Positions 1 through 34,069 of a DNA stretch of 34,069 nt are shown here, piece after piece; within the stretch, counting starts at the first letter, position 1; each line of letters begins with the position of its first letter. Both the position numbers and the translations under genes were made by a program. Below the pieces are notes generated by a model, which saw only the letters and a list, made by a program, of their open reading frames with translations, did no database searches and had not been told where the DNA came from. The stretch lies in the IMG/VR virus record IMGVR_UViG_3300042896_001364, positions 1 to 34,069 of that record; one strand, given 5' to 3'. Source of the stretch: a virus.

Positions 1-1257
1 ATGGTCAACAGGCTGAAACTGAATGAGAAAACCGTCCGGGAGGCCGAGAACCTGGGGCGGGACTACCAGATTTTCGACACCGATGTGCGCGGGTTTTCGA
101 TCACCATCTATCCCTCTGGCAACCGGGCCTTTACCCTCGACTACCGGGTCGGCGGGCGGCAGCGGCGGATGACCATCGGGCGCTGGCCGGAATGGACCAC
201 GGTGGCCGCGCGCGAACGGGCAAAGGATCTGCGGCGCGAGATCGATGAAGGAATCGACCCGCTCAACCAGCGGGAAAACGCCCGCGAAGCCCCGAGGGTG
301 AGTGATATGACCAAGCGCTATCTGGAGGAGCACACGCCGCACCTCGCCGCCCGCAACGCCGCCGACCAGCATGCCATAATGGCCAAGCTGGTCGAGCCGG
401 ATTGGGGCAGGAAGCTGGTGACGGAGATCACCAAGGCCGATGTGGAAAAGTTGCTGACCAAGATCGCGGCGGGTCGAGCGCGACCGTCAAAGGTCAAGCC
501 CAACAATCGCGCCAAAAAACTTCAGGGGGTGAAGCCAACGCCAGTGCGCGCAAACCGGGTCGGGGAGGTGCTGCGCAAGATGTTCACATTGGCGGTCGGC
601 TGGGGCTGGCGTGAGGACAACCCTGCCAGCGCCTTTCGCCGCCGCATCGAGAATGAACGCGAACGTTTCCTGACGCCTGAGGAAATAGGCAGACTGGCCA
701 AGGCGCTGGATGGGGCGAATGATCAGCGCGCAGCGGGAATCATCCGGCTCTGCATGCTGACCGGCGCGCGGTCAGGCGAGGTGCGCCAAGCGCGGTTTGA
801 ACAGTTCAACCTCGATCTTGCCAGCTGGTCGAAACCCGCCGCGACCACCAAGCAGCGCAAGATCCACCGCATCCCGATCTCCGGCGATGTGGCGGCCATC
901 GTGCGCCAGCGCGGGTTGCTGGTGCCAAAGGGCAGTCCGTGGCTGTTCCCCGGCGACACGCCCGGCCAGCCGGTCAAGGAAATGCGCCGCTTCTGGGTGG
1001 CTATCCAGAAGGAGGCCAACCTGCCAGAGGTCCGGATCCACGATCTGCGCCACACCTTTGCATCGCTCTTGGTCAGCGGCGGGGCCTCGCTCGAGATGAT
1101 CGGCAAACTGCTGGGCCATACGCAGATGCAGACGACCCAGCGCTATGCTCACCTGATGGACTCGCCCCTGCGAGATGGGGTCAATGCTGTGGCTAGCATC
1201 TTCCGGCCCCGACCACAGCTTGTCCATGATGCCGACCAAGAGAAGAAGATAGCGTGA
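1..1257 (+). CDS. int: Tyrosine recombinase (P4-like phage integrase), element 1
   Basis: This is a site-specific recombinase that would integrate and excise element 1. The N-terminal part (about residues 5-95) is the DUF4102-type arm-binding domain with the typical GRQRRMTIG stretch. A core-binding region follows, then the catalytic domain. Visible catalytic residues are Arg257 (TGARSGE), Lys284, His347 and Arg350 (HDLRH), His373 (LGH) and the nucleophile Tyr382 (RYAHL). The length of 418 aa is normal for the family. The ATG is the first base of the window, so its ribosome site and any earlier start cannot be seen. It is clearly homologous to the integrase at 23445-24716, including the shared PVRANRVGEVLRKMF segment, but it faces the opposite way relative to the genes beside it. 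It converges with the next gene, leaving 42 nt between them. Confidence 0.95.
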   Translation: MVNRLKLNEKTVREAENLGRDYQIFDTDVRGFSITIYPSGNRAFTLDYRVGGRQRRMTIGRWPEWTTVAARERAKDLRREIDEGIDPLNQRENAREAPRVSDMTKRYLEEHTPHLAARNAADQHAIMAKLVEPDWGRKLVTEITKADVEKLLTKIAAGRARPSKVKPNNRAKKLQGVKPTPVRANRVGEVLRKMFTLAVGWGWREDNPASAFRRRIENERERFLTPEEIGRLAKALDGANDQRAAGIIRLCMLTGARSGEVRQARFEQFNLDLASWSKPAATTKQRKIHRIPISGDVAAIVRQRGLLVPKGSPWLFPGDTPGQPVKEMRRFWVAIQKEANLPEVRIHDLRHTFASLLVSGGASLEMIGKLLGHTQMQTTQRYAHLMDSPLRDGVNAVASIFRPRPQLVHDADQEKKIA

Positions 1258-1299: not shown

Positions 1300-1896
1300 T
1301 CAAGCGGTTTCCCGCAGCGCCCGCCATATCGGCGCGATCTTCTTGCGCGTCGTGCTCTCCTCCGGAATTTCTCCGGTGGGGGAGTTCTGGGCAAACCAGT
1401 CCTGAACCTCGGCAATCAGTTCGACCTGCGTCGCGGGTATTCCACGGTCGTTGAACCTGCAAAACAGCATAATGATTGCCCCGTCCCAGTCGTAGCGCGA
1501 CGCAGCACCTAATGGGGGTGCCGGGCGACGGCGACGGTCTGGGTCATCATCAACCTTCCGCAAGTCGTCCGCCATCAGCAACAAGTCAGCCAGTTTGATG
1601 ACGACGCCCCCTGCTGGCTCAGTGATGTGAAGCCATTCGGCACTGCCCTCCGGCCGAATGCGGATCACCCGGCATTCCTCGTCGCAATGCCCATGGCGGC
1701 GGAACATCTTCATCATATCAGCGGCGTTGACAGCGACGATCCCTGCGACGGGCTGCAGGCCGCAGAGCACCGGGGAGATGCCGGTGAAAATAGCGAAAAG
1801 GCCGACAATCGACCACGCAGCGACATCGGCATGGGAACAGTCCAGGCGGTCGCAAAATTCGTTCAGTGAAAAGAAGGCTCTTGGTGGCAGAGTCAT
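1300..1896 (-). CDS. Hypothetical regulator-like protein, paralogue of the gene at 24893-25486
   Basis: I recognise no named family. The 198-residue product has an N-terminal stretch (about residues 8-40, FSLNEFCDRLDCSHADVAAW) that could form a MerR/HTH_17-like helix-turn-helix. The C-terminal 70 residues closely match the protein at 24893-25486: both contain YDWDG, PATQ, an LI.E.Q.WF segment, an ES-T-R-K/Q core and a final IW.AL..A. Both genes lie on the minus strand between the integrase and a plus-strand excisionase-type gene. The context suggests a regulator of the integration/excision decision or an element-specific accessory gene; that is inference. The ATG at 1896 is followed by an open frame with no better internal start. 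Confidence 0.75.
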   Translation of the reverse strand: MTLPPRAFFSLNEFCDRLDCSHADVAAWSIVGLFAIFTGISPVLCGLQPVAGIVAVNAADMMKMFRRHGHCDEECRVIRIRPEGSAEWLHITEPAGGVVIKLADLLLMADDLRKVDDDPDRRRRPAPPLGAASRYDWDGAIIMLFCRFNDRGIPATQVELIAEVQDWFAQNSPTGEIPEESTTRKKIAPIWRALRETA

Positions 1897-2439: not shown

Positions 2440-2473
2440 GACCGGAATTGAATCCGGCCTTTCAATTCCGGTC
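2440..2473. promoter_or_regulatory. Perfect 13-bp inverted repeat, candidate operator of element 1
   Basis: GACCGGAATTGAA (2440-2452) and its exact complement TTCAATTCCGGTC (2461-2473) are separated by 8 nt. The centre lies about 100 nt upstream of the ATG at 2554. The core AATTCCGGTC also occurs in the repeat at 25671-25724 in front of the homologous gene of element 2, which supports a role as an operator or recombination-factor site. Confidence 0.65.
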
Positions 2474-2553
2474 TCCGCCTAGGTTCCGGTACCTTGTGTC
2501 TGCTTCTCTCTCCCCGTCCCCGGCAATCGCCGGGATCTGGATGGGAGATCGAA

Positions 2554-2802
2554 ATGCAAAACACTGCCCCTGCCTCGCAGGAACAACCGCTGCACCTGCT
2601 GGCGGAATGGATCAGCCGCGAGCAGCTTGCCGGTGAACTTGGGCTCGCCAGCGACACCTTGGCGCGCTGGGAGGCGCGACAGCTTGGCCCGCCCTGCACC
2701 CGGATTGGCCGGAAGGTCCTCTATCGCCGCACCTCGGTCCAAGAGTGGATAAACGCCCAAGAACAAGTCCGCCCGGCCAAAACACGGCGGGGTCGGAAAT
2801 GA
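2554..2802 (+). CDS. Excisionase-type helix-turn-helix DNA-binding protein
   Basis: This is a small 82-residue DNA-binding protein of the MerR-like HTH_17/excisionase type. The core runs over about residues 19-68: a first helix around WISREQLAGEL, then TLARWEARQLGPPC, and the wing R-GRKVLYR, followed by a helix around VQEWI. In phages such proteins bend DNA for excision or repress early promoters. The start at 2554 is chosen because GGGAG lies 6 nt upstream and the sequence before it has no homology. It overlaps the next gene by ATGA (2799-2802). It is homologous to the protein at 25794-26063 (shared SDTL/VDTL, GPPC and GRKVLYR). Confidence 0.85.
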   Translation: MQNTAPASQEQPLHLLAEWISREQLAGELGLASDTLARWEARQLGPPCTRIGRKVLYRRTSVQEWINAQEQVRPAKTRRGRK

Positions 2803-6359: not shown

Positions 6360-6439
6360 AAGCCCCCAATGGCGATTTTATTGGTCGCATGCCGTCTTCT
6401 TCATCGCTAGGTTGACGAAAAATATTGTCTGGGGTGCAT

Positions 6440-13825: not shown

Positions 13826-14590
13826 TCAGGCAGTTTCGGTGGATTTTCGGGTGCGGCTTTGCGCCAGACGATAGCTCTCGCCGTTCATCTCGAGGATGTT
13901 GACGTGGTGCGTCAGCCGGTCGAGCAGCGCGCCGGTCAGGCGTTCGGTGCCGAAGGTTTCGGTCCATTCATCGAACGGCAGGTTGCTGGTGATCAGCGTG
14001 GCCCCGCGCTCGTAGCGCTGCGAGATCATCTCGAACAGCAGTTCGGCGCCGGTTTTGGAGAGGGGCACGAAGCCCAACTCATCGATGATGAGCAGCTTGA
14101 CTGCGGCCATCTGTTTCTGGACGCGAAGTAGCCGGCGCTCATCGCGGGCCTCCATCAGTTCATTGACCAGCGCGGCGGCGGTGGTGAAGCTGACCGACAT
14201 CCCCTTCTGGCAGGCGGCCAGACCCAGGCCGAGGGCGATATGGGTCTTGCCGGTTCCACTCGGCCCGAGGGCGATGACGTTCTCCCGCCGATCGATCCAT
14301 TCGCAGCGGGCCAGTTCCAGCACCTGCATCTTGTTGAGTTTGGGGATCGCCTTGAAGTCGAAGCTGTCAAGACTCTTGGTGGCCGGGAACTTCGCCGCCT
14401 TGATGCGGCGCTCCACCATCCGCCGCTCACGGTCGATCAGTTCCAGCTCGACCAGGCGCGCCAGGAACTGGACATGGTCCCGCCCCTCGGCCGCGCATTG
14501 GCGCGCCAGCTTCTCGTATTCCCGCAGGAAGGTCGGCAGCTTCAGGGTCTTCAGATGATGGACAAGCAGGATCTTCGGGGCCTCGGTCAT
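13826..14590 (-). CDS. istB: IS21 helper ATPase IstB
   Basis: This AAA+ ATPase of 254 residues is related to DnaC and helps the IstA transposase choose and capture target DNA. Walker A is GPSGTGKT (109-116) and Walker B is LLIIDELG (166-173). The N-terminal helical region is the usual IstB lead-in. The start overlaps the istA stop by ATGA at 14587-14590, the classical translational coupling of IS21 elements. The length is normal and no disruption is seen. Confidence 0.95.
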   Translation of the reverse strand: MTEAPKILLVHHLKTLKLPTFLREYEKLARQCAAEGRDHVQFLARLVELELIDRERRMVERRIKAAKFPATKSLDSFDFKAIPKLNKMQVLELARCEWIDRRENVIALGPSGTGKTHIALGLGLAACQKGMSVSFTTAAALVNELMEARDERRLLRVQKQMAAVKLLIIDELGFVPLSKTGAELLFEMISQRYERGATLITSNLPFDEWTETFGTERLTGALLDRLTHHVNILEMNGESYRLAQSRTRKSTETA

Positions 14591-16098
14591 TCCGCCGCCT
14601 CCGACATCAGCGCCATGTAGCTGGCGGTCGAGGTCGCCTCCACATTCGCGCGCGGCAGATAGGGATAGCTTGCAAGGTCGAGCTTCGGCGGTCGGCTTTC
14701 GATCCGACAGAGCAGCAGGTGCTTGACCGCGTCGAAGCCCACCGCACGCAGTCGAAGGGCATCCTTGATCGCTCCGTGCAGATCATTGAGGCCAAAGGTC
14801 TCGAGCAGGCGCAGAACCTGGACATACTCGCGCCGCCCCATCTTGAGCATGCGCGCCTCCATGAGGCGACGCAGGGTATGAAACTCTTCGGGCAGGTTCC
14901 ATTCTGCCAAGGGTGCCGCTTGATCCAAGGCATTGATCTTGCGCTCGATCAGGGGAAGGTAATGGACCGGATCGAAGACGGCGTCCTCGCGCGCGTAGCA
15001 GCGTGGGTGCCGGGCAATCACCTCCCCGCGGCAGCCGATCACGACCTGGTCGACATAGCCCCGCACCCACACATCCTGATGGCCATAGGCAACCGGCACC
15101 GAGTAGTCGTTGGTGTCATAGCGCACAAGCGACTGTGAACTGACCTTGCCGTTGGCCTGGTCGCAGGCCTCGAATGGCGCGCCAGGCAGGTGCTTCATCG
15201 CGGTCAGATCACGCTGCAGCCGATCGCCGATCGGCTCCTTGTGACTGCGCAGAATGTCGTGCTGGCGCTTGCGGCACTGGGCTTCGAGGTCGGCGTTGAA
15301 CTCCACCCAACTGGCAAAGCGGGGGATGGGCACCATGAAGTTGCGCCGTGCGTAACCCACCAGCCCCTCGACGCTGCCCTTGTCGTTGCCCTTGCCCGGC
15401 CGCCCATACCGATCCCGGAACAGGTAATGCGACTGCAGGGCGCTGAACAGCGTGGCGCGCTTGCGCGTCCCGTCCGGCAGGATCTTCGACACAAGGCAGC
15501 GGTCGTTGTCATAAAGCGCCGTTTGCGGCACCCTGCCGAAGAAGGCAAAGGCATGGACATGGCCATCCATCCAGGCCTCCGCCGTCGCCGCAGGATACGT
15601 CCGCACGAAACAGCTATCGCTGTGCGGCAGGTCCATGACGAAGAAATGGGCCTTCTGCTCGACGCCGCCGATGATCACAACGGCTTCGCCAAAATCCGCC
15701 TGCGCATGCCCCGGCGGGTGGACGAGCGGCACGAACATCTCCCGGCCCCGCAGCTCCCGATCCCGAACGTAATCCTTGATGATCGTGTATCCGCCGGTGA
15801 AACCATGCTCTGCCCGTAAACGGTCGAATACACGCTTGGCGGTATGATGCTGCTTGCGATGAACATCCTTGTCGCCGTCGAGCCAGCTGTCGATGATCTC
15901 GGTGAACCCATCCAGCTTCGGCCGCTTGACAGGAGACGTCCGCCGGTAGCCGGGGGGGATCGAAAACGCCATGGCCTTGTCGACAGTGTCGCGCGAAATG
16001 TTGAAATGGCGCGCCGCAGCGCGCTTGCTCATGCCGTCGGCACAGGCCAGACGAACCTTCAGGTAAAGTTCCACGGTGTAGATCTCCAAACCCTCCAT
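14587..16098 (-). CDS. istA: IS21 transposase IstA
   Basis: This 503-residue transposase has an N-terminal helix-turn-helix (about residues 8-45) that would bind the terminal repeats. The DDE catalytic core has Asp135 in AQADFGEA, an Asp in YDNDR (197 or 199), and Glu244 in KGSVEG. A C-terminal beta-barrel-type region follows. It appears full length and intact, so the IS could still be active. Transcription runs leftward away from hsdR, starting about 95 nt inside the right end. Confidence 0.95.
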   Translation of the reverse strand: MEGLEIYTVELYLKVRLACADGMSKRAAARHFNISRDTVDKAMAFSIPPGYRRTSPVKRPKLDGFTEIIDSWLDGDKDVHRKQHHTAKRVFDRLRAEHGFTGGYTIIKDYVRDRELRGREMFVPLVHPPGHAQADFGEAVVIIGGVEQKAHFFVMDLPHSDSCFVRTYPAATAEAWMDGHVHAFAFFGRVPQTALYDNDRCLVSKILPDGTRKRATLFSALQSHYLFRDRYGRPGKGNDKGSVEGLVGYARRNFMVPIPRFASWVEFNADLEAQCRKRQHDILRSHKEPIGDRLQRDLTAMKHLPGAPFEACDQANGKVSSQSLVRYDTNDYSVPVAYGHQDVWVRGYVDQVVIGCRGEVIARHPRCYAREDAVFDPVHYLPLIERKINALDQAAPLAEWNLPEEFHTLRRLMEARMLKMGRREYVQVLRLLETFGLNDLHGAIKDALRLRAVGFDAVKHLLLCRIESRPPKLDLASYPYLPRANVEATSTASYMALMSEAAE

Positions 16099-16149: not shown

Positions 16150-18801
16150 CTATCCCGCCGCTACCGTGGCCGAGTTTTGCACCGCCGTTCTCAGGATCAG
16201 CGACAGATCATCGAACTTGGAAATGACATCGCTTTCCTCGGCCCGAATATAGGTGTCGATCAAATGTCGCATCGCAGGCTCGTACATCTTGAGATCGATG
16301 TAATCGCCGCTTGCCAGCTTGACCTCGTTTCGCACCTTTTCGAAGTGATCGACGTCCGCCTTGATGGCTGCGGCTTCAATTTCGGAATAGCCTGCCTCAG
16401 CCATTTCATTCGCAACATCGGCGTAGGCCCGCAAAAGCGCGGCCGCCAACCGATAAAGGGCGAGACGCTTCGGCTCATTCTCTTTCAACGCGTCTTTGTC
16501 GGCCGTATCTTCGGCGCAGAAGAACCGCAGATAGGCGTGGGTGTCGCGCGGCGCATCGACCGGCTCGCACAGGGCCCTGACCGCCTCAAGCGCATCGTCG
16601 AGGCGTTCCCGAGCCATCTTCAGGCGATCGGTCAGCAGCCCGGCTACATCTTCCTTGTCATAGCCGTCGAAAGCCTCGGTCGTGTAATCCTTGATCGAGG
16701 TCTCAAGGCTTTTGAACAAGTCCTTGTAGTCAATGACATAGCCATATTCCTTGTCGTCGCCGTCCAGCCGGTTGACCCGGCAGATCGCCTGGAACAGGCC
16801 ATGATCCTGCATCTTCTTGTCGATGTAGAGGTAAGTTGCCGACGGCGCATCGAATCCAGTGAGAAGCTTGTCCACCACGATCAGCAGCTTCATCTGCCCG
16901 GGCTCGTCGATGAACTTCTTCTTGGCCTGTTTCTCGAATGCCTCGGCCTCCTGACCGCCCAGCATCTTGGTGTAGATGTCGTACTGGCGCAGCCGTTCGG
17001 TCAGCCCCTCACCGCTTTCTTCGCCTTTGATATCGCTGGCCGACGGCTTGTAAGACGTCACAATCGCGCATTTACCTGCCAAATCGGTCTTGTCGAACAG
17101 CTCGTAGAACTTGCAAGCCTGATAGATGCTTGACGACACCAGCATCGCATTGCCGTGGCCGCTTTTCAGCCGGTCCTTCAACTCCATATCCATCAGGATA
17201 TCGCCGACGATCTTTTCCAGCCGCGATTGGCTCGACAGCACCTTTTGCATGGTGCCCCAGCGCTGCTTCAGCTGCGCCTTGGCCAAATCGTTCAGGCCTT
17301 TGGTTTTCAATTCGAACCATTGATCGATCTTCGCCTGCGACGTCACGTTCTGGTCGATATCCCGCGCCTCATAGCGCAGATCAAGCACGACGCCGTCCGC
17401 GACCGCCTCGTTGAATTTGTAGGTGTGGATGTAGGGGCCAAACACTTCGAGGCTGGTTTGCTTGTCCTCTTTCAGCAGCGGCGTTCCGGTGAAACCGATG
17501 AACATCGCATTCGGCAGGATCGCCTTCATCGCCTTGTGCAGATCGCCACTTTGCGAGCGGTGGCATTCGTCGACAAAGACGTAAACGTCGCCCTTGGCGC
17601 GAAAATCCTTCGGCAGCGCCTGGCGCACCTCTTCGATGTAGCCGCTGACATCAGCGTCAGACTCTTCCTTGCCACCGAACTTGTGGATCAGCGAACACAG
17701 CAGCCATGGGGCCTCTGCATTCAACTGCGCTATAAGTTCGGCGCCGCTTTTGCTGCGCAGGATGTCCTCGTTGACGCCCTTGAAAACCTTCTCGATCTGT
17801 TCGTCCAATTCTGTGCGGTCGGTGATGACAAGCACCCGCGCGCCCTTCACATTCTCCCGTATCCACTTGGCCAGCCAAACCATTGTCAGGCTTTTGCCGG
17901 ACCCTTGGGTGTGCCAGATGATCCCGCCCTCGCGCCGCCTGATCTGCTCCTGGGCCGCATGCACCCCAAAATACTGGTTGTGACGGCAGGTCTTCTTGAC
18001 GCCCGCGTCATACACCAAGAAATTATGGATCATGTCGAGGAAGCGATCCTTGGCGCACAGGCGCAGCAACGCGGTGTCCAATCGCGAAACGCCCGGCACG
18101 TCGGCCAGATAACGCTGGTCACGCTTGTCGATGCCCTCGCGGTAAGCCGGGTTCTCTTCGCGCCAGGCCAGCCAATACTTCTCCTTCGTCTCGATCACGC
18201 CATAGCGCAGCCCCTCGGTGTCATTCCCCGCCATGATCATCTGCATGGTGGTGAAGAACCGCTGGATGAACATCGGCTTTTGGTTGTCGAGGTTCTGGCG
18301 GATGCCTTCCGATACCGAAACGGTCGAACGCTTCAGTTCCAGCACGCCCAGCGCGATGCCGTTGACATAGATCACCACATCCGGCCGCTTGCCGAAGGTT
18401 TTGCCATCCGAGGTCGCGGCCTTGATCGCCACCTCTTCGGCAATGGCAAAATGGTTGGCCTCTGGGTCTTTCCAGTCGATCAGCCAGACGGTCTGGGTCT
18501 GCTCGCCCACATCCGCCTTCACCTTCACCCCATAGCGCAGCAGGTCGTAAACGTCGCGATTGATGTCATAAAGGCTGCGCGATTGGTCCGTCGCCACCTT
18601 GGTCAGATGCGCGATGGCCTTGGTGATTAGCGCGGGGGCGTAGCCCATGGCCTCAAGGAACGGGCGCAGGTAGGTGGGCTCAATATTCGCGTTGCCCACC
18701 CGGTCGATCCAGTTGCCCAGATGGTCATAACCAAGCTGGTCCTGAAACAGCTGCACGACCCGCGCCTGTGTCCGCTTTTCGATCTGGCCCACGGTGCTCA
18801 T
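16150..18801 (-). CDS. hsdR: Type I restriction subunit HsdR, C-terminally truncated by IS21
   Basis: This is the endonuclease/translocase subunit of a type I R-M complex. In 883 residues: PD-ExK nuclease with Asp141, Glu155 and Lys157 (LELK); Walker A TQGSGKS (298-304); DECH box (411-414); FTGTP (438-441); later helicase motifs GFDAPSATYLYIDKK and QAICRVNR; then the start of the DUF3387-type C-terminal domain. Family members usually have 1000 or more residues. Here homology stops at KFDDLSLI; the last 14 residues and the TAG are encoded by the IS21 right terminal repeat (16150-16193). The missing part normally helps dock HsdR on the methylase core, so restriction may be lost while modification continues. 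The start overlaps the previous stop (ATGA at 18798). Confidence 0.9.
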   Translation of the reverse strand: MSTVGQIEKRTQARVVQLFQDQLGYDHLGNWIDRVGNANIEPTYLRPFLEAMGYAPALITKAIAHLTKVATDQSRSLYDINRDVYDLLRYGVKVKADVGEQTQTVWLIDWKDPEANHFAIAEEVAIKAATSDGKTFGKRPDVVIYVNGIALGVLELKRSTVSVSEGIRQNLDNQKPMFIQRFFTTMQMIMAGNDTEGLRYGVIETKEKYWLAWREENPAYREGIDKRDQRYLADVPGVSRLDTALLRLCAKDRFLDMIHNFLVYDAGVKKTCRHNQYFGVHAAQEQIRRREGGIIWHTQGSGKSLTMVWLAKWIRENVKGARVLVITDRTELDEQIEKVFKGVNEDILRSKSGAELIAQLNAEAPWLLCSLIHKFGGKEESDADVSGYIEEVRQALPKDFRAKGDVYVFVDECHRSQSGDLHKAMKAILPNAMFIGFTGTPLLKEDKQTSLEVFGPYIHTYKFNEAVADGVVLDLRYEARDIDQNVTSQAKIDQWFELKTKGLNDLAKAQLKQRWGTMQKVLSSQSRLEKIVGDILMDMELKDRLKSGHGNAMLVSSSIYQACKFYELFDKTDLAGKCAIVTSYKPSASDIKGEESGEGLTERLRQYDIYTKMLGGQEAEAFEKQAKKKFIDEPGQMKLLIVVDKLLTGFDAPSATYLYIDKKMQDHGLFQAICRVNRLDGDDKEYGYVIDYKDLFKSLETSIKDYTTEAFDGYDKEDVAGLLTDRLKMARERLDDALEAVRALCEPVDAPRDTHAYLRFFCAEDTADKDALKENEPKRLALYRLAAALLRAYADVANEMAEAGYSEIEAAAIKADVDHFEKVRNEVKLASGDYIDLKMYEPAMRHLIDTYIRAEESDVISKFDDLSLILRTAVQNSATVAAG

Positions 18802-19541
18802 GACGGAACCTGCTTCCTGTTAACTTGCGGCAGCGGCGCCCATATCCAGCCCTCGGACACCGGGGCATCTGCGGGCGGTGCTTCCAGCCAGTCGCGCCGC
18901 AGCACAAAGGCATGGGCGATATAGGCACAGACCTCGGCGTCCATGATATCCGCCTTTGGGCCGTTGATGGGCTTGTCGAGTTCGGGAAACACACCCCGCG
19001 CCCGCGCCCGGCAGAGCGCGGGATAGGTTTCGATCAGGGTCATCTGCGCGCCATCCGACCAGACGCCCGGCGCGATCATCTGGGTGAAGCGGGCGACGGC
19101 GTGCATGGCCTTGGTCGACTGGCTGCCGATCATGTCCTTGACGGCCGACAGCGAGGTCAGGCCTTCCTCGTCAAGGCGCCGTTCAGTGAAGCGGTAAAGA
19201 TAGGGGTTCTCATAAGACCGGCCGATCTGGTCCAGCGGTACGCCGCCGGTGATCAACTGGGCGAAAGCGGCCGGAAAGCCGAGCGGGGCGTCGATGGCGA
19301 TTGTGGCTTTGGCTGTGCTTGCAAGCGGGGGCAGCTTGCACAGGGCGAGGATCGCCGTCAGGAAATCGGTGCCTGTGGTTGAGGCGTTGATGGTCAGACG
19401 CAGGTTGCCGCGCCAGGGCTGGCCGATCCGCGCGCCCGCGCCATCCAGCACCACCAGCGCATCGCGGCTGGTGGGGTTCTTGTCGCAGTTCCAGCCGCCG
19501 ACATCCCAGCCGATGAACACCTGATCTCCGCTCGCCGTCAT
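18798..19541 (-). CDS. DUF429 (RNase H-fold) protein embedded in the hsd operon
   Basis: The 247-residue product fits DUF429, a family predicted to have an RNase H-like fold and possibly nuclease activity. Visible landmarks are GWDVGG (11-16), IDAPLGFP (83-90), ETYPA (171-175) and an Asp-rich helix around Asp198-Asp201, spaced like an acidic active site. It overlaps hsdS (ATGA at 19538) and hsdR (ATGA at 18798), so all three are almost certainly co-translated, which implies a job linked to the restriction system. The biochemical function of DUF429 is not established. Confidence 0.75.
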   Translation of the reverse strand: MTASGDQVFIGWDVGGWNCDKNPTSRDALVVLDGAGARIGQPWRGNLRLTINASTTGTDFLTAILALCKLPPLASTAKATIAIDAPLGFPAAFAQLITGGVPLDQIGRSYENPYLYRFTERRLDEEGLTSLSAVKDMIGSQSTKAMHAVARFTQMIAPGVWSDGAQMTLIETYPALCRARARGVFPELDKPINGPKADIMDAEVCAYIAHAFVLRRDWLEAPPADAPVSEGWIWAPLPQVNRKQVPS

Positions 19542-20731
19542 ATCAGCCGCACCCGTCCGGTCAGCAGTTCCTGCATCATGCCCTGCTTGACCGCGCGAGC
19601 CTTGGCGGCCTGCGCCTCAAGCGCGGCGAGGTCGGCGTCCATGTCGGAAAGGACTTCGGCGATAGCGGTTTGTTCAGAGAGAGATGGGAAAGGAATAACA
19701 GTCTTCTTTGCCCCAGAAATCGTGTAAGTTCCAACGGTACTGCCACCCGCGGAGTCTCTGATTTGCCTCATGATTTCTTCGGTCAAGAAAAGCTGACGAA
19801 GAAAACTCGCAGACATTTTGCCACGAATCTTGAACCAAATAATATTGCCATCTTTGAAATAGAACTCTTGGTCACTCTCAACCACGAAAACGCGCCCAAG
19901 AGTCCCGACTCCCGTTACAAGCATATCTCCAACTTCCGGAACCCCAGAGTTGGCTTTGTGGGACTCATATAGATCGCGCGAGACAAACAGCTGATTTTCG
20001 ATAGCCTCATTGTCAGCCAGCAGGACAATCTCACGCGCTCGATAAAACGGCACGCCTTGGGTTTTCCATTCGCTCTGAAACACTCGCTTGCTTGAACCAA
20101 TATCAAAAATCTCGCCCAACCGCTTCACCTCCCACTCCCCCGAGAACCCCGGCAGGCGGGTTTTGCCGGTGAGGAGGTGTTGCATGGCGGCCTGCTTGAG
20201 GTCGCGCTTCTTAGCGATCATCCCCTCCAACGCCGCAATCAACCCATCCGCATCCGCCAACGCCGCCGCAATGGCGCGTTGTTCCTCCGGAGGTGGAGAT
20301 AGAAAATCTCTTTCCTTCAGAAACTTAAAGTGCCGATTGTATCCCGTTGCCTCAATTCCCCTGTGCTCCAATGCGAAGCTGTGAAAGGTTGCTGAGTGGC
20401 CTGATTTTGGGACAAGGATTTGCGTCCCATCAGCGCCAACAACGAAATCATGCAGCACTAACTTTACGATGCACGTGTGATCCCCGAAGATGATTACTCC
20501 GCCTTCAGGGACCGCAAATAGCTTTTCGGCGAAGTCAGAGTATCCTACGATGCGCTTCTGACCTTGATCCACAATCGGGAAAAGTCCCATTTCACGGTAT
20601 TCTGACGTCTGTATCTGATATGCCTTACTCGGAACCTTCCTGAAGACACTTTCGAAGTGCTGAACATCCCAATCTTCCGGAACAACCCCCACCTCAGTCT
20701 GCTTATACCCCGGCCTGATCTCCCCCTGCAT
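19538..20731 (-). CDS. hsdS: Type I specificity subunit HsdS
   Basis: The 397-residue specificity subunit recognises a bipartite target. Two target-recognition domains (about residues 15-150 and 200-345) are each followed by a conserved helical spacer. The repeats are EEQRAIAAALADADGLI...LLTGKTRLPGF and SEQTAIAEVLSDMDADL...LLTGRVRL. The ATG at 20731 is chosen because it lies just past the hsdM stop (20734) and begins with the family-typical GYKQTEVGVVPEDW; the open frame before it lies inside hsdM. Both recognition domains are visibly more AT-rich than the spacers, consistent with exchange of specificity domains. Confidence 0.92.
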   Translation of the reverse strand: MQGEIRPGYKQTEVGVVPEDWDVQHFESVFRKVPSKAYQIQTSEYREMGLFPIVDQGQKRIVGYSDFAEKLFAVPEGGVIIFGDHTCIVKLVLHDFVVGADGTQILVPKSGHSATFHSFALEHRGIEATGYNRHFKFLKERDFLSPPPEEQRAIAAALADADGLIAALEGMIAKKRDLKQAAMQHLLTGKTRLPGFSGEWEVKRLGEIFDIGSSKRVFQSEWKTQGVPFYRAREIVLLADNEAIENQLFVSRDLYESHKANSGVPEVGDMLVTGVGTLGRVFVVESDQEFYFKDGNIIWFKIRGKMSASFLRQLFLTEEIMRQIRDSAGGSTVGTYTISGAKKTVIPFPSLSEQTAIAEVLSDMDADLAALEAQAAKARAVKQGMMQELLTGRVRLI

Positions 20732-20733
20732 CG

Positions 20734-23175
20734 TCACGCCGCGAACCCCATCCGCTTCAGATGCGCCGCCACCTTGGCACTCAGCGCGTCCAGATCCTCG
20801 GCCAGTTTCGGCAGTGGCGTGGCATAGCGTTCCGCCAGCATCTTGACCCGCCGCGCCAGAGCCTGGCTCACGCGGTCCACCTCGGCCGCCACATCCGACC
20901 GCACCTTCGTGAGCCATTTGCCCTGTACCAGCAGCGCTTTGACCTGTTCCTCGGTCAGCTTGGCATATTGCGCCACCACCGCCGCATCCAATGCCGCCTG
21001 CGCCGCCTTGACCGCCGCATCGGCATCCGCCGCCGCTTCGATCAGCGACAGGCAGGTTTTCAACATCGCCCGCTCTTCGCCCGCCTCCTTGTCCAGACGT
21101 ATGTCGCGGGTCCGGTCCTTGACAGATTTCGCGGTCAGCTTGCCCTTGTCGGTCTTGGCCTCGAACAGCAACCCATCCTCGCCGCCATGTTCCTCGTCCA
21201 ACTCCTCCACCGCCCGCGCGGCCTCTTCGGCCTTGGCCTCCAACGCCTCCAGCGCGGCCTGTTCGGTGGCGAAGAACCGCGCCACGATCAGCGCGGGCGG
21301 GATCAGTTCCGCCTTCAGCTTTCGCCGCCCCAGCGTGATGTCGGGGGTTTCGGTGAACTTGCCCTCGGCATTCTTGACCAGTTCACGGATCACGCGCCCC
21401 GCCGCCCAGCCATCCTGCACAAGGATATAGGTGTCGTCCTGCATCACCTCGGCCCAATAGGTCATCAGGTGCTGATAGACGTCGTAGCCATCAATCAGCG
21501 GCACGGGTTTGAAGCGATCCAGCAGGTCTTCGGACAGGGTGGCGATCAGGGCCTTGGGATGGTCGCCAATGGCAATGCCGCGCAGCCGGTCGATATGGGC
21601 GGCTGACCAGGCATCGAACACCTCGGTCACGCGGGCGGTGAAGGCGGCAAACTCGGGGTGGTTCAGGATCGCGCCCTTGACCTCGGCCGCATCGACCAGC
21701 GGCGTCAGATAGCCCGGCCGATCCCCTGGGCCAAAGAGCGTGGCCCGAACGGCAGGCAGAACATCCCAGAACTCGGCCAGCGCATCGACATCGCGCACCG
21801 GGATGCCGCCCTTCAGATGCGCCTCGATGTCCTGCAGGTCTTCGGGTTCGGAACTGTCGATGTAACGCGGGATGTTCAGGTTGAAGCCGTGCTTTTCGAT
21901 CTCGGCCAGCGGCACCATGCGGGAATATTTGTCGATCTCGATCTGCTTGGTGAAGGCGTCGACGATCTTGTGCAGGTCCTGCGACCGCAGCCGGTTCTTG
22001 TTGCCGTCCTTCACGAAGCCCTTGGAGGCGTCGATCATGAAGATGCCAGTGCGGGCGTGGGCGTTTTCCTTGTCGATCACCACGATGCAAGCTGGGATGC
22101 CGGTGCCATAGAACAGGTTGGCAGGCAGGCCGATGATCCCCTTGATGTAGCCCTTCTTGATGATCTTCTCACGGATTTCGCTTTCGGCATTGCCGCGGAA
22201 GAGAACACCGTGCGGCAGAATGACTGCGCCTTTGCCGGTAGTTTTCAGCGAGGCGATGATATGGAGCAGATAGGCAAAGTCGCCGTTCTTGGCAGGGGGA
22301 ACACCGTAGTCAAAACGATCGTAGATGTCGTTTGCCGGATCAAGCCCGGTTCCCCAGGCTTTGTCCGAGAATGGCGGGTTGGCGACCACGAAGTCGAAGG
22401 TTTTCAGGGTGCCGTTGGGGTTCTTGAAATGCGGATTGGCCAACGTGTTGTCCCGCCAGATTTCCGCGGTCGGGCAGTCGTGCAGCACCATGTTCATTTT
22501 GGCGAGGGCGCGGGTGGCGACGTCTTTTTCCTGGCCGTAGATTGTGATGCCCGCTGGGGCTTCGTCGCGCGCCTTCAAGAGAAGTGAGCCGGAGCCGCAT
22601 GTTGGGTCGTAGATTGTCTGGTCCGGGCGGTTGGAAGCGCTGATGGCGATGGCCTTCGCCATGATTTTCGACACTTCGGATGGCGTGTAGAACTGTCCCT
22701 TGCTCTTGCCCGACTCAGTTGCAAAGTGGCGCATCAGGTATTCATAGGCATCGCCGAGGATGTCGTCGCCCTCGGCCCGGTTCTTGCGGAAATCAAGCTC
22801 AGGGCGGTTGAAAATCGCCACTAGGTTTGACAACCGATCGACCATTTCCTTACCAGTGCCGAGCTTCTCTTCCTCGTTGAAATCGGCAACGTCGATCACG
22901 CCCTTCAGGTCGTTCGCCTCGGCCAGCTTCGCAATAATGATGTTAATCTTCTCGCCGATTTCTTTGTCACCTTTCAGGGCAACCATATCGGCAAAGCTAC
23001 CACCCTCAGGGATTTCGATCAGACCGTCCGGATCGCCTGCATATTTGTCGGAGACGTATTTCACGAACAGCAAGACGAGGACGTAATCTTTGTATTGCGA
23101 GGCATCCATCCCGCCCCGAAGCGCGTCACAACTTGCCCAAAGCGAACTGTAGATTTCTGATTTCTTAACTGCCAC
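20734..23175 (-). CDS. hsdM: Type I N6-adenine methyltransferase subunit HsdM
   Basis: This is the methylase subunit of the HsdM2S complex. Motif I is DPTCGSGS (190-197), the catalytic motif is NPPF (266-269), and QFYTPSEVSKIM (161-172) is the usual pre-motif. The GTG at 23175 is chosen as start because family members begin AVKKSE-YSSLWASCD at this point; the ATG at 23229 has no ribosome site. With 813 residues it is longer than the classical 500-residue HsdM. The extra C-terminal 300 residues contain an Ala/Glu-rich coiled-coil-like stretch (around EALEAKAEEAARAVEELDEE). It is the first gene of the hsdM-hsdS-DUF429-hsdR operon. Confidence 0.93.
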   Translation of the reverse strand: MAVKKSEIYSSLWASCDALRGGMDASQYKDYVLVLLFVKYVSDKYAGDPDGLIEIPEGGSFADMVALKGDKEIGEKINIIIAKLAEANDLKGVIDVADFNEEEKLGTGKEMVDRLSNLVAIFNRPELDFRKNRAEGDDILGDAYEYLMRHFATESGKSKGQFYTPSEVSKIMAKAIAISASNRPDQTIYDPTCGSGSLLLKARDEAPAGITIYGQEKDVATRALAKMNMVLHDCPTAEIWRDNTLANPHFKNPNGTLKTFDFVVANPPFSDKAWGTGLDPANDIYDRFDYGVPPAKNGDFAYLLHIIASLKTTGKGAVILPHGVLFRGNAESEIREKIIKKGYIKGIIGLPANLFYGTGIPACIVVIDKENAHARTGIFMIDASKGFVKDGNKNRLRSQDLHKIVDAFTKQIEIDKYSRMVPLAEIEKHGFNLNIPRYIDSSEPEDLQDIEAHLKGGIPVRDVDALAEFWDVLPAVRATLFGPGDRPGYLTPLVDAAEVKGAILNHPEFAAFTARVTEVFDAWSAAHIDRLRGIAIGDHPKALIATLSEDLLDRFKPVPLIDGYDVYQHLMTYWAEVMQDDTYILVQDGWAAGRVIRELVKNAEGKFTETPDITLGRRKLKAELIPPALIVARFFATEQAALEALEAKAEEAARAVEELDEEHGGEDGLLFEAKTDKGKLTAKSVKDRTRDIRLDKEAGEERAMLKTCLSLIEAAADADAAVKAAQAALDAAVVAQYAKLTEEQVKALLVQGKWLTKVRSDVAAEVDRVSQALARRVKMLAERYATPLPKLAEDLDALSAKVAAHLKRMGFAA

Positions 23176-23444
23176 GAGGCCCCCGACTATTTTATTGACA
23201 CTACAGCCTGATGATTGGCCTTGATGCATTTGTTTTTCGACAGCAAGGCAGGTATCGCCAAGTCTTTGTGGCCCGGCCCAGCGTCAACCAGACCTCCCAA
23301 CCGACTGTTCTGCCTTCCGCATGCATCGTCGGCCTAGGCGTGGAGCGCCCTGCCGGAGATGCCCGGCCATTTGCAGTCAGATTGCCCGGTTGTGCAAGCC
23401 GCGGTTGACCTCGAAAGTCGCTTCATTGGCCCTTTTGGGCTGGA
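23176..23444. other. Junction between hsdM and element 2, likely attachment-site region
   Basis: The hsdM promoter must lie at the left of this 269-nt gap; a TAAAAT hexamer sits 12 nt before the GTG, but I see no matching -35. The end of the element 2 integrase lies on the right, so an att core would be expected here. No tRNA gene or tRNA 3' end and no repeat of another window segment was found. Confidence 0.4.
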
Positions 23445-24716
23445 TTATCCGGCCCCGCCCACAACCTTGAGCCTCGGCTTCAGCATTTCCCCCACCGCGT
23501 TCACCCCGGCCCGCAGAGGCGAGTCGATCAGATGGGCATAGCGCTGGGTGGTGCCGATTTGGGTATGCCCCAGCAGCCGCCCGATCATTTCCAGCGAGGC
23601 CCCGCCAGAAACCAGCAACGAGGCGAAGGTGTGGCGCAGGTCATGGATGCGGACGTCGGGGATCTCGGCCTGCACGCGCATCCGTTCCCAAAACCGCTTG
23701 AGGTCCACCACCGGCTGGCCGGGCACATCGCCGGGGAAGAGGAAGCGGCAGCCTTTCGGCACGGCATCCCCGCGCAGCCGGATCAGAGCGACCGCCTCAT
23801 GCGAGATCGGGACGCGGTGCACGCGGCGCTGCTTCGTGTAGGCCGCTTGCTTGGTCCAAATGGCCAGATCGAGGTTGAACTGGTCGAAGGTGGCAGTGCG
23901 GGCCTCGCCGCAGCGGGCGCCGGTCAGCATACACAGGCGAATGATCCCGGCAGCGCGCTGATCGGGATCGGCGCAGAGGGCGTCAGCGAGGCGCTGGATT
24001 TCCTCGAAGGAGAGGAACCGCTCCCGGGCGGTCTCGGGGCGCTTGCGAAAGCTGGTGGCGGGATTGTCTGTGCGCATTTTCCATGTGACCGCGAGGCTGA
24101 ACATCTTGCGCAGCACCTCCCCCACCCGGTTGGCACGCACGGGCGTTGGCTTGAAGGTCTTCGGCGGCGTCTTGGGTTTAGGCTGCTTTGCCTTGAACGC
24201 CCGGGGAGCCGGGACTGGCTTGACGGTTTTCTTCCAGACCCGCGGCCGCCCTGCCGCGACCTTGGTCAGCAACCGGTCGACATCGGTCGGCGTGATGTCG
24301 GTGACCTTGCGTGACCGCCACTCGGGCAGGACCAGCGTTCTGACCATGCTGGCCTGATCCTTGCCACTGGATGCGGACAGTTTCGGCAGATGTTCGTCGA
24401 TGTACCGATCGATCAGTTCGTCAACGGTGGGCGCGTGTCGCGCGTTGGTCCGCGTGTCCATCGGGTCTTCACCCCGATCGATGTCGCGCTTCAGGCGCTT
24501 GGCTTCCTCCCGAGCGGCGACCACCGACCAGCTAGGCCATGTGCCGATCGTCATGCGGCGCTGCCGCCCGGCGGCGCGGTAGATCAGGATGAACCCCTTG
24601 CGGCCCGACAGGAAAACGCAAAGGCAGAAGCCCGCGCAATCCTCGTCAAAAACCACGTACTTGCGCGTACCGATTTCGGCAGCCTTTACAAATCGTTCAG
24701 TCAAATGCGTTCCCAT
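23445..24716 (-). CDS. int: Tyrosine recombinase (P4-like phage integrase), element 2
   Basis: This 423-residue integrase has the same architecture as the one at position 1: DUF4102-type N-terminus, core-binding region with a Pro/Lys-rich insertion (about 160-190), and catalytic domain. Catalytic residues are Arg268 (TGARCGE), His358 and Arg361 (HDLRH), His384 (LGH) and Tyr393 (RYAHL). ATG 24716 is chosen: AAGGGGAG lies 5 nt upstream and the alignment with the other integrase begins here; a TTG at 24767 would add 17 unrelated residues. A 53-bp regulatory repeat (24782-24834) lies 65 nt upstream of the ATG. Confidence 0.95.
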   Translation of the reverse strand: MGTHLTERFVKAAEIGTRKYVVFDEDCAGFCLCVFLSGRKGFILIYRAAGRQRRMTIGTWPSWSVVAAREEAKRLKRDIDRGEDPMDTRTNARHAPTVDELIDRYIDEHLPKLSASSGKDQASMVRTLVLPEWRSRKVTDITPTDVDRLLTKVAAGRPRVWKKTVKPVPAPRAFKAKQPKPKTPPKTFKPTPVRANRVGEVLRKMFSLAVTWKMRTDNPATSFRKRPETARERFLSFEEIQRLADALCADPDQRAAGIIRLCMLTGARCGEARTATFDQFNLDLAIWTKQAAYTKQRRVHRVPISHEAVALIRLRGDAVPKGCRFLFPGDVPGQPVVDLKRFWERMRVQAEIPDVRIHDLRHTFASLLVSGGASLEMIGRLLGHTQIGTTQRYAHLIDSPLRAGVNAVGEMLKPRLKVVGGAG

Positions 24717-24781
24717 GCGGGCTCCCCTTGTCGCACCGACTGAGCAAAGAGAATCGGCAAAGAGCAACCTGCTCTACACGA

Positions 24782-24834
24782 GGGACCGGAATTTAGGGGG
24801 AAACCGGGGGAAACAAAAAGGCAATTAATCCGGT
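24782..24834 (-). promoter_or_regulatory. Regulatory repeat upstream of int (left copy of inverted pair)
   Basis: This 53-nt sequence is an inverted copy of 25671-25724, with 49 of 54 aligned positions identical and 33 of the first 34. It contains GACCGGAATT and two GGGGGAAAC units spaced 10 bp apart (one helical turn). Relative to the integrase it lies 65 nt before the start codon, in the same orientation as the other copy has to its own gene. The reading as a common promoter/operator is inference. Confidence 0.8.
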
Positions 24835-24892
24835 ACTTTTTGCGGCCCAATGCGGTTGTTTGCGGCCTCGCGCAGATTCGAGACCAACTGCG

Positions 24893-25486
24893 TCAGGCTG
24901 CCTTCAGGGCGTGCCAAATCACCTTGATCCGCTGCCGGATGGTGCTTTCGTCCGGCGCGGAACCGTGCGTGGAATTGGCGATAAACCACTCCTGCATCTC
25001 GACGATCAGCGCCGTCTGGGTGGCGGGGAGACCGTGATTGTGGATGCGCTTCATCACGGCGATGTGGAAGCCGTCCCAGTCATACTTTCCCGGTGCGCCG
25101 GGCCCAGCGCTGCGGGTCCGGTTGATCTCGTGAGCTTGCTCGAAGCGTTCTATTTCGTCGGCGGTGATCATGATGTCGGCGGCGGTGAACCGGACGCCGC
25201 GCTCGGGGTCCGTGATCGTCAACCAAACCGTGGTACTGGGACGACGGGCTTGTTTTACATAGACTTTCTTTGCAGCTTCGCCGAACGGGCGGAACAGCGG
25301 GCGGACCTCGCTCCCCGGCACGCTGAGCAAACCAGCGGCGGATTGGTCGCCAAATCGCACCTCCCTGAACGCCGCGACGAGATCGATTTCATCCGAAATC
25401 GCCCAGTCCACGATCTGTGTCGGACTGCACGTCCAGCGCCCAGAAGCCTCAAGAATCGTAAACAAACACCGCGCCGGAAACGCCAT
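24893..25486 (-). CDS. Hypothetical regulator-like protein, paralogue of the gene at 1300-1896
   Basis: This is a 197-residue protein of unknown function. The N-terminal region (WTCSPTQIVDWAISDEIDL, about residues 18-37) could be a helix-turn-helix. The C-terminal 70 residues match the element 1 paralogue (YDWDG, LPATQ, EMQEWF, DESTIRQRIKVIWHAL). It lies exactly between the two copies of the 54-bp regulatory repeat, so it is a good candidate for the protein that binds them or is controlled with them. A GAGGTAGGG run before the ATG at 25486 supports the start. Gene identity is firm; the regulatory role is inference. Confidence 0.75.
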   Translation of the reverse strand: MAFPARCLFTILEASGRWTCSPTQIVDWAISDEIDLVAAFREVRFGDQSAAGLLSVPGSEVRPLFRPFGEAAKKVYVKQARRPSTTVWLTITDPERGVRFTAADIMITADEIERFEQAHEINRTRSAGPGAPGKYDWDGFHIAVMKRIHNHGLPATQTALIVEMQEWFIANSTHGSAPDESTIRQRIKVIWHALKAA

Positions 25487-25670
25487 CCCTACCTCTTTTC
25501 GACCCCCAGTCTGACCGAGATTTCGCGACGTACGAAACCGGACCCCAGCCTCGCGGTGGGGTGATCATCTGGCGATTCTATTTGTGAACTGCTCTCCCCG
25601 AAGCTGTCAGAAGTCCCGGTTTGTTCCTATCAAAATCCGCAGCGGCGGTTCCGATTTCGGGGGATAAAAG

Positions 25671-25724
25671 ACCGGATTAATTACCCGGTTTGTTTCCCCC
25701 GGTTTCCCCCTGAATTCCGGTCCC
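25671..25724 (+). promoter_or_regulatory. Regulatory repeat upstream of the excisionase-type gene (right copy)
   Basis: This is the inverted partner of 24782-24834. It ends 69 nt before the ATG at 25794, compared with 65 nt at the integrase. It reads ACCGGATTAATTA, then two GTTTCCCCC units (25692 and 25702), then GAATTCCGGTCCC. The AATTCCGGTC core recurs in the element 1 palindrome at 2440-2473. Confidence 0.8.
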
Positions 25725-25793
25725 ATGTCCGTGCTTGTCTGCCCGCACTGATTTGGCCGCGCCGTTCAAGGCCGCCAAACTTGGAGGAAAGAC

Positions 25794-26063
25794 ATGAAAA
25801 ACATTGGCTTGAAGGCACCAGACGATACCGTGCCCGAGGTGGATACCGGCCTTCTGACCGGCTGGCTGGACCGCACCGACCTTGCCCGGGAACTGACCCT
25901 GTCGGTCGACACTCTGCAGCGCTGGGAGACCCGCCGGGTCGGACCGCCCTGCGTAAGGGTAGGCCGCAAGGTGCTTTACCGCATGGAGGCTGTCAGGGAC
26001 TGGCTGCGCGAACAGGAAGTCCGCAAGGCAGGCGTCAGCCGTGCCGTCGCCGGTCGGCGCTGA
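25794..26063 (+). CDS. Excisionase-type helix-turn-helix DNA-binding protein
   Basis: This 89-residue HTH_17/MerR-like protein is homologous to the product of 2554-2802. The core is WLDRTDLARELTLSVDTLQRW (about residues 23-43, two helices), then TRRVGPPC and the wing VGRKVLYR, followed by a helix around AVRDWLREQE. It has a strong ribosome site, GGAGG, 7 nt upstream of ATG 25794. The likely roles are directionality factor for the integrase or early repressor; the sequence cannot decide between them. It is first in a plus-strand operon running into the replication genes. Confidence 0.85.
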   Translation: MKNIGLKAPDDTVPEVDTGLLTGWLDRTDLARELTLSVDTLQRWETRRVGPPCVRVGRKVLYRMEAVRDWLREQEVRKAGVSRAVAGRR

Positions 26064-32703: not shown

Positions 32704-33312
32704 ATGGGAGTATCCCGGCGAAGCTATGCCGCGCAGCGCGGGGTCTCAGAAGCGGCGGTGCGAAAAGCCATCGCCACCGGCCGGATCACCACCCTGGCCG
32801 ACGGCACGATCGATCCGGCGCGGGCGGATTCCGAGTGGGGCGCCCAGACTGATCCGGCCAAGCAGCGCGGCCAGCATGCCAAACAGATGGGCGCGGAAAC
32901 AGCCGCAGGAACGGCGCGGGCAGCGGCCACCAAGCCGGTGCCGCAGGCAGCGATCAGGGCGGTGGCGGACACGTTGCGCGATGCCGGAACCGATCCGGGC
33001 AGCGCGGAGGCAACCGGCGGTGAGGTGTCCTTCCTGCGCGCCCGGATGGCCAACGAGGTGCTGAAGGCGCAGACCGCCAAGGTCCGGCTGGAAAAGATGA
33101 AGGCCGAGGTGATCGACCGCGCCCGGGCAACGGCGATGGTGTTCGATCTGGCACGGCGCGAACGCGATGCCTGGCTGAACTGGCCGCCGCGGGTTGCGGC
33201 CAACATGGCCGCGGAACTGGGCGTCGATGCCCATCGGATGGAGCAGGTTCTGGACATGTATCTGCGCCAGCACCTGACGGAGATGGCGGAGGTGAAAATT
33301 GAGCTCCGCTGA
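32704..33312 (+). CDS. Phage terminase small subunit, Nu1-like
   Basis: The small terminase subunit binds the packaging site and recruits the large subunit. In 202 residues it has an N-terminal helix-turn-helix-like region (SRRSYAAQRGVSEAAVRKAI, residues 4-23), a linker, and a C-terminal helical oligomerisation part (FLRARMANEVLKAQTAKVRLEKMKAEVIDR and RRERDAWLNWPPRVAANMAAELG). Its coupling to a GpA-type large subunit supports the call. The ribosome site for ATG 32704 is weak; the coding frame is firm. Its last 14 nt overlap the large-subunit start. Confidence 0.85.
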   Translation: MGVSRRSYAAQRGVSEAAVRKAIATGRITTLADGTIDPARADSEWGAQTDPAKQRGQHAKQMGAETAAGTARAAATKPVPQAAIRAVADTLRDAGTDPGSAEATGGEVSFLRARMANEVLKAQTAKVRLEKMKAEVIDRARATAMVFDLARRERDAWLNWPPRVAANMAAELGVDAHRMEQVLDMYLRQHLTEMAEVKIELR

Positions 33313-34069
33313 CACCTTTGACGGAGCAGAAGAGGTCCGCCGCGCATGGATGGCCGGTCTTGCGCCCGATCCGTCGCTGACCGTGTCGCAATGGGCCGAC
33401 CGGCACCGGGTCTTGTCGTCGCGGGCGGCGTCAGAAGCCGGGCCCTATCGCACCGCCCGCACGCCTTACATGAAGGCCGTGATGGATGCGCTGTCGCCCC
33501 GCCACCCGGCGCAGCGGGTCGTGTTCATGAAGGCGGCGCAGGTGGGCGCGACCGAGGCCGGAAATAACTGGATCGGGTTCTGCATGCACCGCGCGCCAGG
33601 CCCGTTTCTGGCGGTGCAGCCAACGGTGGATCTGGCAAAACGCCTGTCGCAGCAGCGGATTGACCCACTGATCGAGGAAAGCCCCGATCTGCGGGCGCTG
33701 GTGCTGCCGTCCCGCTCGCGGGATGCCGGAAACACGATCCTCGGCAAGCGATTTCCCGGCGGGCAGTTGATCCTGACCGGGGCCAACAGCGCCGTCGGGC
33801 TCCGATCGATGCCCGCGCGCTGGGTATTTCTGGATGAGGTCGACGCCTATCCGGGCGATGTCGACGGCGAGGGCGATCCGATCGCCCTGGCCGAGGCCCG
33901 GACCATCAGTTTCGGGCATCGCAGCAAGGTGTTTCTGGCCTCGACGCCGACCCTGAAGGGCCTGAGCCGGATCGAACGGGAGTGGGAATTGTCCGATCAG
34001 CAGCGCTATCACGTGCCCTGCCCGCATTGCGGCGGGCTGCAATGGCTGCAATTCGAGCGGCTGCGCTGG
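33299..34069 (+). CDS. Phage terminase large subunit, GpA family (partial at window end)
   Basis: This is the packaging motor and nuclease, of which the first 257 residues are visible. It shows a Walker-A-like KAAQVGATEAG (78-88), Walker B VFLDEVD (176-182), STPTLKG, and the start of a CPHCGG cysteine cluster, all typical of phage terminase GpA. The TTG at 33299 is chosen as start: GGAGG lies 6 nt upstream and an in-frame stop at 33293 excludes earlier starts. The next start would be ATG 33350, which lacks such a site. The gene continues beyond the window. Confidence 0.9.
   Translation, partial: MSSADTFDGAEEVRRAWMAGLAPDPSLTVSQWADRHRVLSSRAASEAGPYRTARTPYMKAVMDALSPRHPAQRVVFMKAAQVGATEAGNNWIGFCMHRAPGPFLAVQPTVDLAKRLSQQRIDPLIEESPDLRALVLPSRSRDAGNTILGKRFPGGQLILTGANSAVGLRSMPARWVFLDEVDAYPGDVDGEGDPIALAEARTISFGHRSKVFLASTPTLKGLSRIEREWELSDQQRYHVPCPHCGGLQWLQFERLRW

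Follow-up and report, generated by a model that had tools for sequence, protein, structure and literature searches.

A matched pair of sequence elements upstream of integrase and excisionase genes in Rhodobacterales integrative elements: evidence for a probable shared operator and a candidate regulator

To our knowledge, the balance between integrase and excisionase in integrative elements is known in detail for few systems. The DNA investigated here, a stretch of 34069 bases from a virus record (the window), contains two elements, each with an integrase gene (int), a gene for a protein termed Reg and an excisionase-type gene (xis). In element 2, a sequence of about 54 bp is present in two copies, one upstream of int and one upstream of xis (Table 1). 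This raises the question of whether the copies are a control site shared by the two genes and, if so, which protein reads them. The xis gene was assigned by its HTH_17 match (PF12728, 7.1e-07, above the family cut-off) together with its location near int.

Table 1. Genes and putative operator copies of the two elements in the window
Feature	Position	Strand	Evidence or remarks
int1, element 1	1..1257	+	59% identical to int
Reg paralogue, element 1	1300..1896	-	34% identity to Reg
Diverged xis1 operator, same geometry	2440..2493	+	GACCGGA-N20-TCCGG..GCC..TCCGG; 60 nt before likely xis1 ATG
xis1, element 1	2554..2802	+	ORF opens at 2494; likely ATG 2554
int, tyrosine integrase with N-terminal Arm-DNA-bind_3 domain	23445..24716	-	Pfam PF00589, PF13356
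Int-side operator copy	24782..24834	-	Reads toward int on - strand; 65 nt before int ATG
Reg, PHROG 13283 protein	24893..25486	-	PHROG 8.6e-71; AF2 pLDDT 87.8; VIA-align BldC Z 5.0, 4.8
xis-side operator copy	25671..25724	+	Ends 69 nt before xis ATG
xis, HTH_17 excisionase-type protein	25794..26063	+	Pfam HTH_17 7.1e-07; PHROG 66

The copies at 24782-24834 and 25671-25724 were confirmed to be near-identical (49 of 54 positions, with five differences in 54 columns including one 1-nt gap). As the initial annotation had described, both are oriented alike toward their gene, ending 65 nt upstream of the int ATG (24716) and 69 nt upstream of the xis ATG (25794). Alignment of one copy against the other gave a score of 84, compared with a maximum of 24 across 50 shuffles, and the 18-mer GTTTCCCCCGGTTTCCCC had exactly two occurrences, with 0.06 expected at ≤3 mismatches. 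The two 9-bp units reported earlier were found to begin at 25692 and 25702, one helical turn apart. Comparison with relatives indicated that the true unit is larger, comprising a left inverted half-site, an interval of ~20 bp and GCC-type half-sites at 0, +10 and +18. For element 1, the region upstream of int1 falls beyond the window edge and only the xis1 side is readable; the right half of the diverged operator on that side aligned to the int site with a score of 34 (shuffled maximum 32).

To place the pair in a wider context, 10 viral and 80 genome loci were gathered, of which 78, window element 2 among them, hold int, xis and Reg; a few of these 78 are one element present in both the viral and the genome collections. 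Three gene orders were distinguished. The commonest, order B (reg-> <-int xis->), has int and xis divergent and was found in 53 loci, while order A (xis<- reg-> int->), which includes window element 2, accounted for 20 loci and order C (xis<- reg-> <-int) for five, plus window element 1. A matched pair stands before int and xis in 74 of the 78 Rhodobacterales loci, with pair scores of 42-113 against shuffled maxima of 22-35. Two of the four loci without a clear pair have a broken int, and in the other two the copies are weak but look alike. The distance from the int site to the int ATG had medians of 66 nt in order A and 70 nt in order B, with a narrow spread, and was 69 nt in one well-aligned order C locus. 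The proposal that the repeat is a cis-element shared by int and xis is well supported. The initial annotation had named absence or variable spacing in relatives as grounds for refuting it, and the repeat is instead present and position-conserved in related elements.

The inverted arrangement in the window, with Reg between the copies, had also suggested a DNA inversion switch for the regulator gene. In order B, however, the pair encloses only non-coding DNA and flanks no gene, in order C the copies are direct, and an inverted Reg arrangement was seen in 0 of 78 loci. Because the pair flanks Reg only in the gene order of the window, it is almost certainly not an inversion device and this part of the initial annotation is not supported. 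By the same observation, since order A alone has Reg enclosed by the copies, the repeat goes with int and xis rather than with the segment that it happens to flank.

The association of the site with these modules was close. Among 296 genomes of the family, all matches to the B site with 0-1 mismatch were in Reg-bearing genomes and all but one lay beside int or xis; the site was kept without Reg only in relics with a truncated int (L144, L145). The exact window 18-mer had no match in viral contigs, because the letters of the site are element-specific. Two further observations concern additional copies. A B-type site core with one mismatch lies at L147:2236-2259, inside a predicted frame and 10 kb from the matched pair of that contig, and may be due to chance. 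One order C locus (L146) has three site cores in the same orientation, at 6732 (before xis), 7091 (between xis and reg) and 9427 (before int).

Reg itself was detected in 29 of the 296 Rhodobacteraceae-family genomes sampled, about one tenth, with four of the matches borderline, and was hardly present elsewhere in the class. It was present on three plasmids and in no cultured phage, and a single-sequence search of viral contigs confirmed nothing. Members of the family are not all clear phages, with terminase-like genes in window element 2 and mainly restriction-modification cargo in some relatives. The terminase-like frames of the window (32704-34069), resembling small and large subunits, were recognised by eye and are cut by the window end. 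Restriction-modification genes lie beside the modules at 6425-11314 (type IIG, in element 1) and 16150-23229 (type I, between the elements), and the cargo beside the module of L153 (L153:4889-14233) includes a type III system with a DrmD-like helicase. An IS21-type istA/istB pair (13826-16098) is also located between the two elements.

Conserved distances bear on a further alternative, that the repeats are arm-type sites for the N-terminal domain of Int and form part of attP rather than operators. Int does carry an Arm-DNA-bind_3 domain, and arm sites typically take the form of direct repeats of about 10 bp. Element edges were inferred from the points where similarity ends, which are the int stop in order A and about 250 bp before Reg in order B. 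Measured from these inferred edges, the site does not occupy a fixed place, being ~1.3 kb away in order A, >2 kb away in order B and near the edge itself in order C, so that the distance ranges from near zero to >2 kb. A copy also stands before xis. Arm-type sites are very unlikely, given that it is the spacing to the int start codon, and not that to the element edges, which is conserved. A search for an att core did not locate one: a tRNA-Ser gene stands beyond int in L020, but its end was not found directly duplicated close to the element, and no tRNA gene was found in the window.

Several features of the flanking sequence were observed alongside. Downstream of int (at 23444 in the window, and in L004-L018), elements whose int genes are >90% identical have nothing in common immediately after the int stop, a pattern suggestive of an element edge or a hot spot for cargo. 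A DnaA-box-like TTATCCACAG is conserved near the point, ~245 nt before reg, at which similarity ends in order B loci (L034, L036 and L045 among them). Between the operator and the int start (24717-24781 in the window and the same place in relatives, L003-L086) there is a second conserved block, present in all three gene orders and not seen before xis. Examples are TTGATAG..GGCGAAACCACGCC..ATGTCGG in order B and TTGCTC..GCTCAGTCGG in order A, and part of the block resembles a short inverted repeat changed on both sides.

The sites were well described by a common template, GRSYGGC-N20-GCCRSYY-N3-GCC-N5-GCCRSYC, matching on average 22.5 and 22.9 of its 24 positions, whereas shuffled int-upstream regions averaged 16.4 and reached at most 20. 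The left half-site is displaced by a base or two in some elements. Half-site letters were GCCGG in group A and mostly GCCACCC in group B, with some elements mixing both. The two copies of an element changed together, with a mean copy distance of 0.39 within loci versus 0.71 between loci, and the partner copy from the same locus ranked a median of 2nd of 67. The same motif is thus found before each target gene in a form that is element-specific and co-varies between the copies. The genome of L014 contains three elements with three different matched pairs. As one host carries three different pairs, the reader of the site is most simply encoded by the element, which argues against a host factor.

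Window element 2 is informative about which protein this reader may be. In both of its copies the direct half-sites begin with C, C and T instead of the G, G and G of almost every other A or B site, and its inverted half-site also lacks the matching C. Compared with L013-L016, which carry the standard site, the window has an Int and an Xis HTH at about 90% identity or more and a Reg at only about 63%. Q185, in the predicted last helix, is unique to the window Reg (n=75); the others have R (62) or K (12). The coincidence of Q185 with the half-site change is a single event and is only suggestive of a link to site reading. Counter to such a link, group C elements with K185 likewise carry TCC half-sites.

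The main alternative, and a serious one, is that the HTH_17 protein Xis itself binds both sites, regulating its own promoter and int, while Reg does something else. It is serious because RdfS and Apl show that excisionases can bind promoters and direct repeats. RdfS binds attP, DNA upstream of intS and the promoter of its own gene, with the effect that PintS is activated and RdfS expression falls (PMC11963761), and Apl recognises directly repeated sites spaced by one helix turn (PMC7498355). The Xis HTH had a partial correlation of 0.25 with the site across all 66 loci. However, the Xis HTH is largely conserved across group A, and that of the window is almost identical to those of L013-L016, yet the direct half-sites of both window copies have changed in concert. 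Xis also had the lowest weight in whole-protein regressions (0.11-0.15). Moreover, RdfS sites lack a consensus motif and one lies within attP, whereas the int and xis sites here are strongly conserved in sequence and lie off the inferred edge in two of the three gene orders (A and B). We consider Xis unlikely to be the binder.

Reg was the best candidate for the operator-binding protein when variation in site and protein was compared. With Int divergence removed, no other domain had a partial correlation with the site as high as that of its C-terminal domain in group A (0.38) or group B (0.40). Across all 66 loci, the Int arm domain and the Xis HTH scored about equally to it. Int core and catalytic parts alone correlated at about 0.6-0.85. 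These co-variation statistics are confounded because Int, Xis and Reg share one phylogeny.

Reg matched the profile of PHROG 13283, a family of unknown function, over its full length (residues 1-195 of 197). The initial annotation had credited the gene between the copies with a putative HTH and with a paralogue at the same place in element 1. The paralogue exists, but the gene order differs there, with int1 reversed and pointing the other way from int in element 2; as for the HTH, DNA-binding-like domains were predicted, with weak fold matches. In the AlphaFold2 model, an HTH accompanied by strands forms the N-terminal part and three helices make up the C-terminal domain, and the protein is predicted to have an HTH or winged N-terminus and a homeodomain-like C-terminus. 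In VIA-align comparisons of the N-terminal part, BldC-DNA complexes came first, all as weak matches (6ama, Z 5.0, rmsd 3.2, 56 aligned; 6amk, Z 4.8, rmsd 2.1, 52 aligned), with alignments spanning the whole BldC chains. For the C-terminal domain, the top row was a designed protein, and homeodomains and parts of transposases were among the weak matches, with Z up to 5.7. Foldseek searches with whole Reg and with the C-terminal domain gave nothing significant (all E > 0.05). Given weak VIA-align and non-significant Foldseek matches, DNA binding by Reg is put forward as a prediction.

In order B, a third operator, consisting of the inverted pair only, was found between the int and xis operators. 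Three inverted half-site pairs were present in 43 of 53 order B intergenic regions, compared with one pair in 53 shuffles. Centre-to-centre distances fell into five classes per interval, drawn from related elements and grouped by eye after the data were seen: near 152.5, 162, 174, 184 and 194 bp from the int to the middle operator and near 181, 192, 201, 210 and 222 bp from the middle to the xis operator. Both sets were phased at 10.5 bp, with R = 0.97 (P < 1e-4 versus random classes) and R = 0.84 (P = 0.005 versus random classes), respectively, while the distance from the xis site to the start codon, used as a control, was not phased (R = 0.21). This is good, though not final, evidence that the operators of order B may be bridged on one face of the helix, because the independent classes are few and were grouped by eye. 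Spacing in whole helical turns was confined to order B; in order A, the order of the window itself, there was no middle operator and no evident phasing, and the sites are mostly 843-948 bp apart.

The same spacings argue against an RNA-level role, in which the repeats would form leader hairpins in the int and xis mRNAs. In its favour, the inverted half-sites can pair and the distance from the int site to the start codon is fixed. However, the operator spacings track the helical repeat of DNA, the direct half-sites at +10 and +18 fall outside any hairpin, the middle operator precedes the xis site by about 180 bp or more, and an Rfam search gave no match. A role in RNA is extremely unlikely.

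Sequence comparison documents a pair of fixed geometry and place across three gene orders, matched change of its copies and, in order B, helical phase. The explanation that we regard as probable is a twin operator, both copies of which would be read by one element-encoded protein, most likely Reg, with int and xis controlled as a unit. One copy would overlap or adjoin the int promoter region, the other the xis promoter region, so that recognition of both by a single DNA-binding protein would place integrase and excisionase under common control. Reg would be the binder, perhaps through its C-terminal helix on the GCC half-sites, the operators may be bridged by DNA looping, and the outcome of binding would be transcriptional. 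As to the sign of control, we lean slightly to repression, since auxiliary operators joined by looping are characteristic of repressed systems and since Reg seems independent of an operator of its own, no further copy above threshold having been found near Reg or its start in order B loci. Under repression, both genes would be silent in the integrated element and then released together. Close behind is a class II-type activator acting at a promoter without sigma-70 hexamers; a sigma-70 promoter scan of 24600-25900 gave no match.

A search of the literature available to the analysis found no description of a shared int/xis operator of this kind, although partial likenesses exist. In the lambda CII regulon, direct repeats (TTGC-N6-TTGC) are located at pI and pRE, so that, as here, the same direct-repeat operator with one helical turn between its units precedes int and another gene. 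The sites described here differ from those of CII in having four half-sites including an inverted one, int and xis as the target pair and a phased third operator, and no homology was seen. The RdfS circuit of ICEMlSymR7A (PMC11963761) is similar in that the expression of integrase and excisionase in an alphaproteobacterial integrative element is coordinated by one small HTH protein which the element encodes; in the present case, by contrast, the best candidate is Reg, a separate regulator. The present case shares with Apl of phage 186 and Cox of P2-like phages (PMC7498355) direct-repeat sites one helical turn apart and, on the reading proposed here, the action of a single protein at several promoters of one element. 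Apl, however, acts at att and the pR-pL switch region, whereas the sites here precede int and xis themselves and, unlike those of Apl, include inverted half-sites at a fixed distance. BldC, a MerR-like regulator of Streptomyces, binds direct repeats head to tail (PMC5859096), and it is to its DNA complexes that the N-terminal HTH and wing of Reg align best, if weakly; unlike BldC, Reg has an inserted beta domain and a second DNA-binding-like domain.

A more specific proposal can be made tentatively. Reg may be the first of a new family of two-headed regulators, which would hold int and xis of Rhodobacterales elements in one looped nucleoprotein complex on phased operators. Operator and regulator would co-evolve separately in each element, and co-resident elements would thereby be insulated from one another. 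Dozens of natural operator/regulator variants are available, including three co-resident in one genome, so specificity, cross-talk and looping are directly testable. If the reading of Reg as the binder is true, it would give PHROG 13283 a function.
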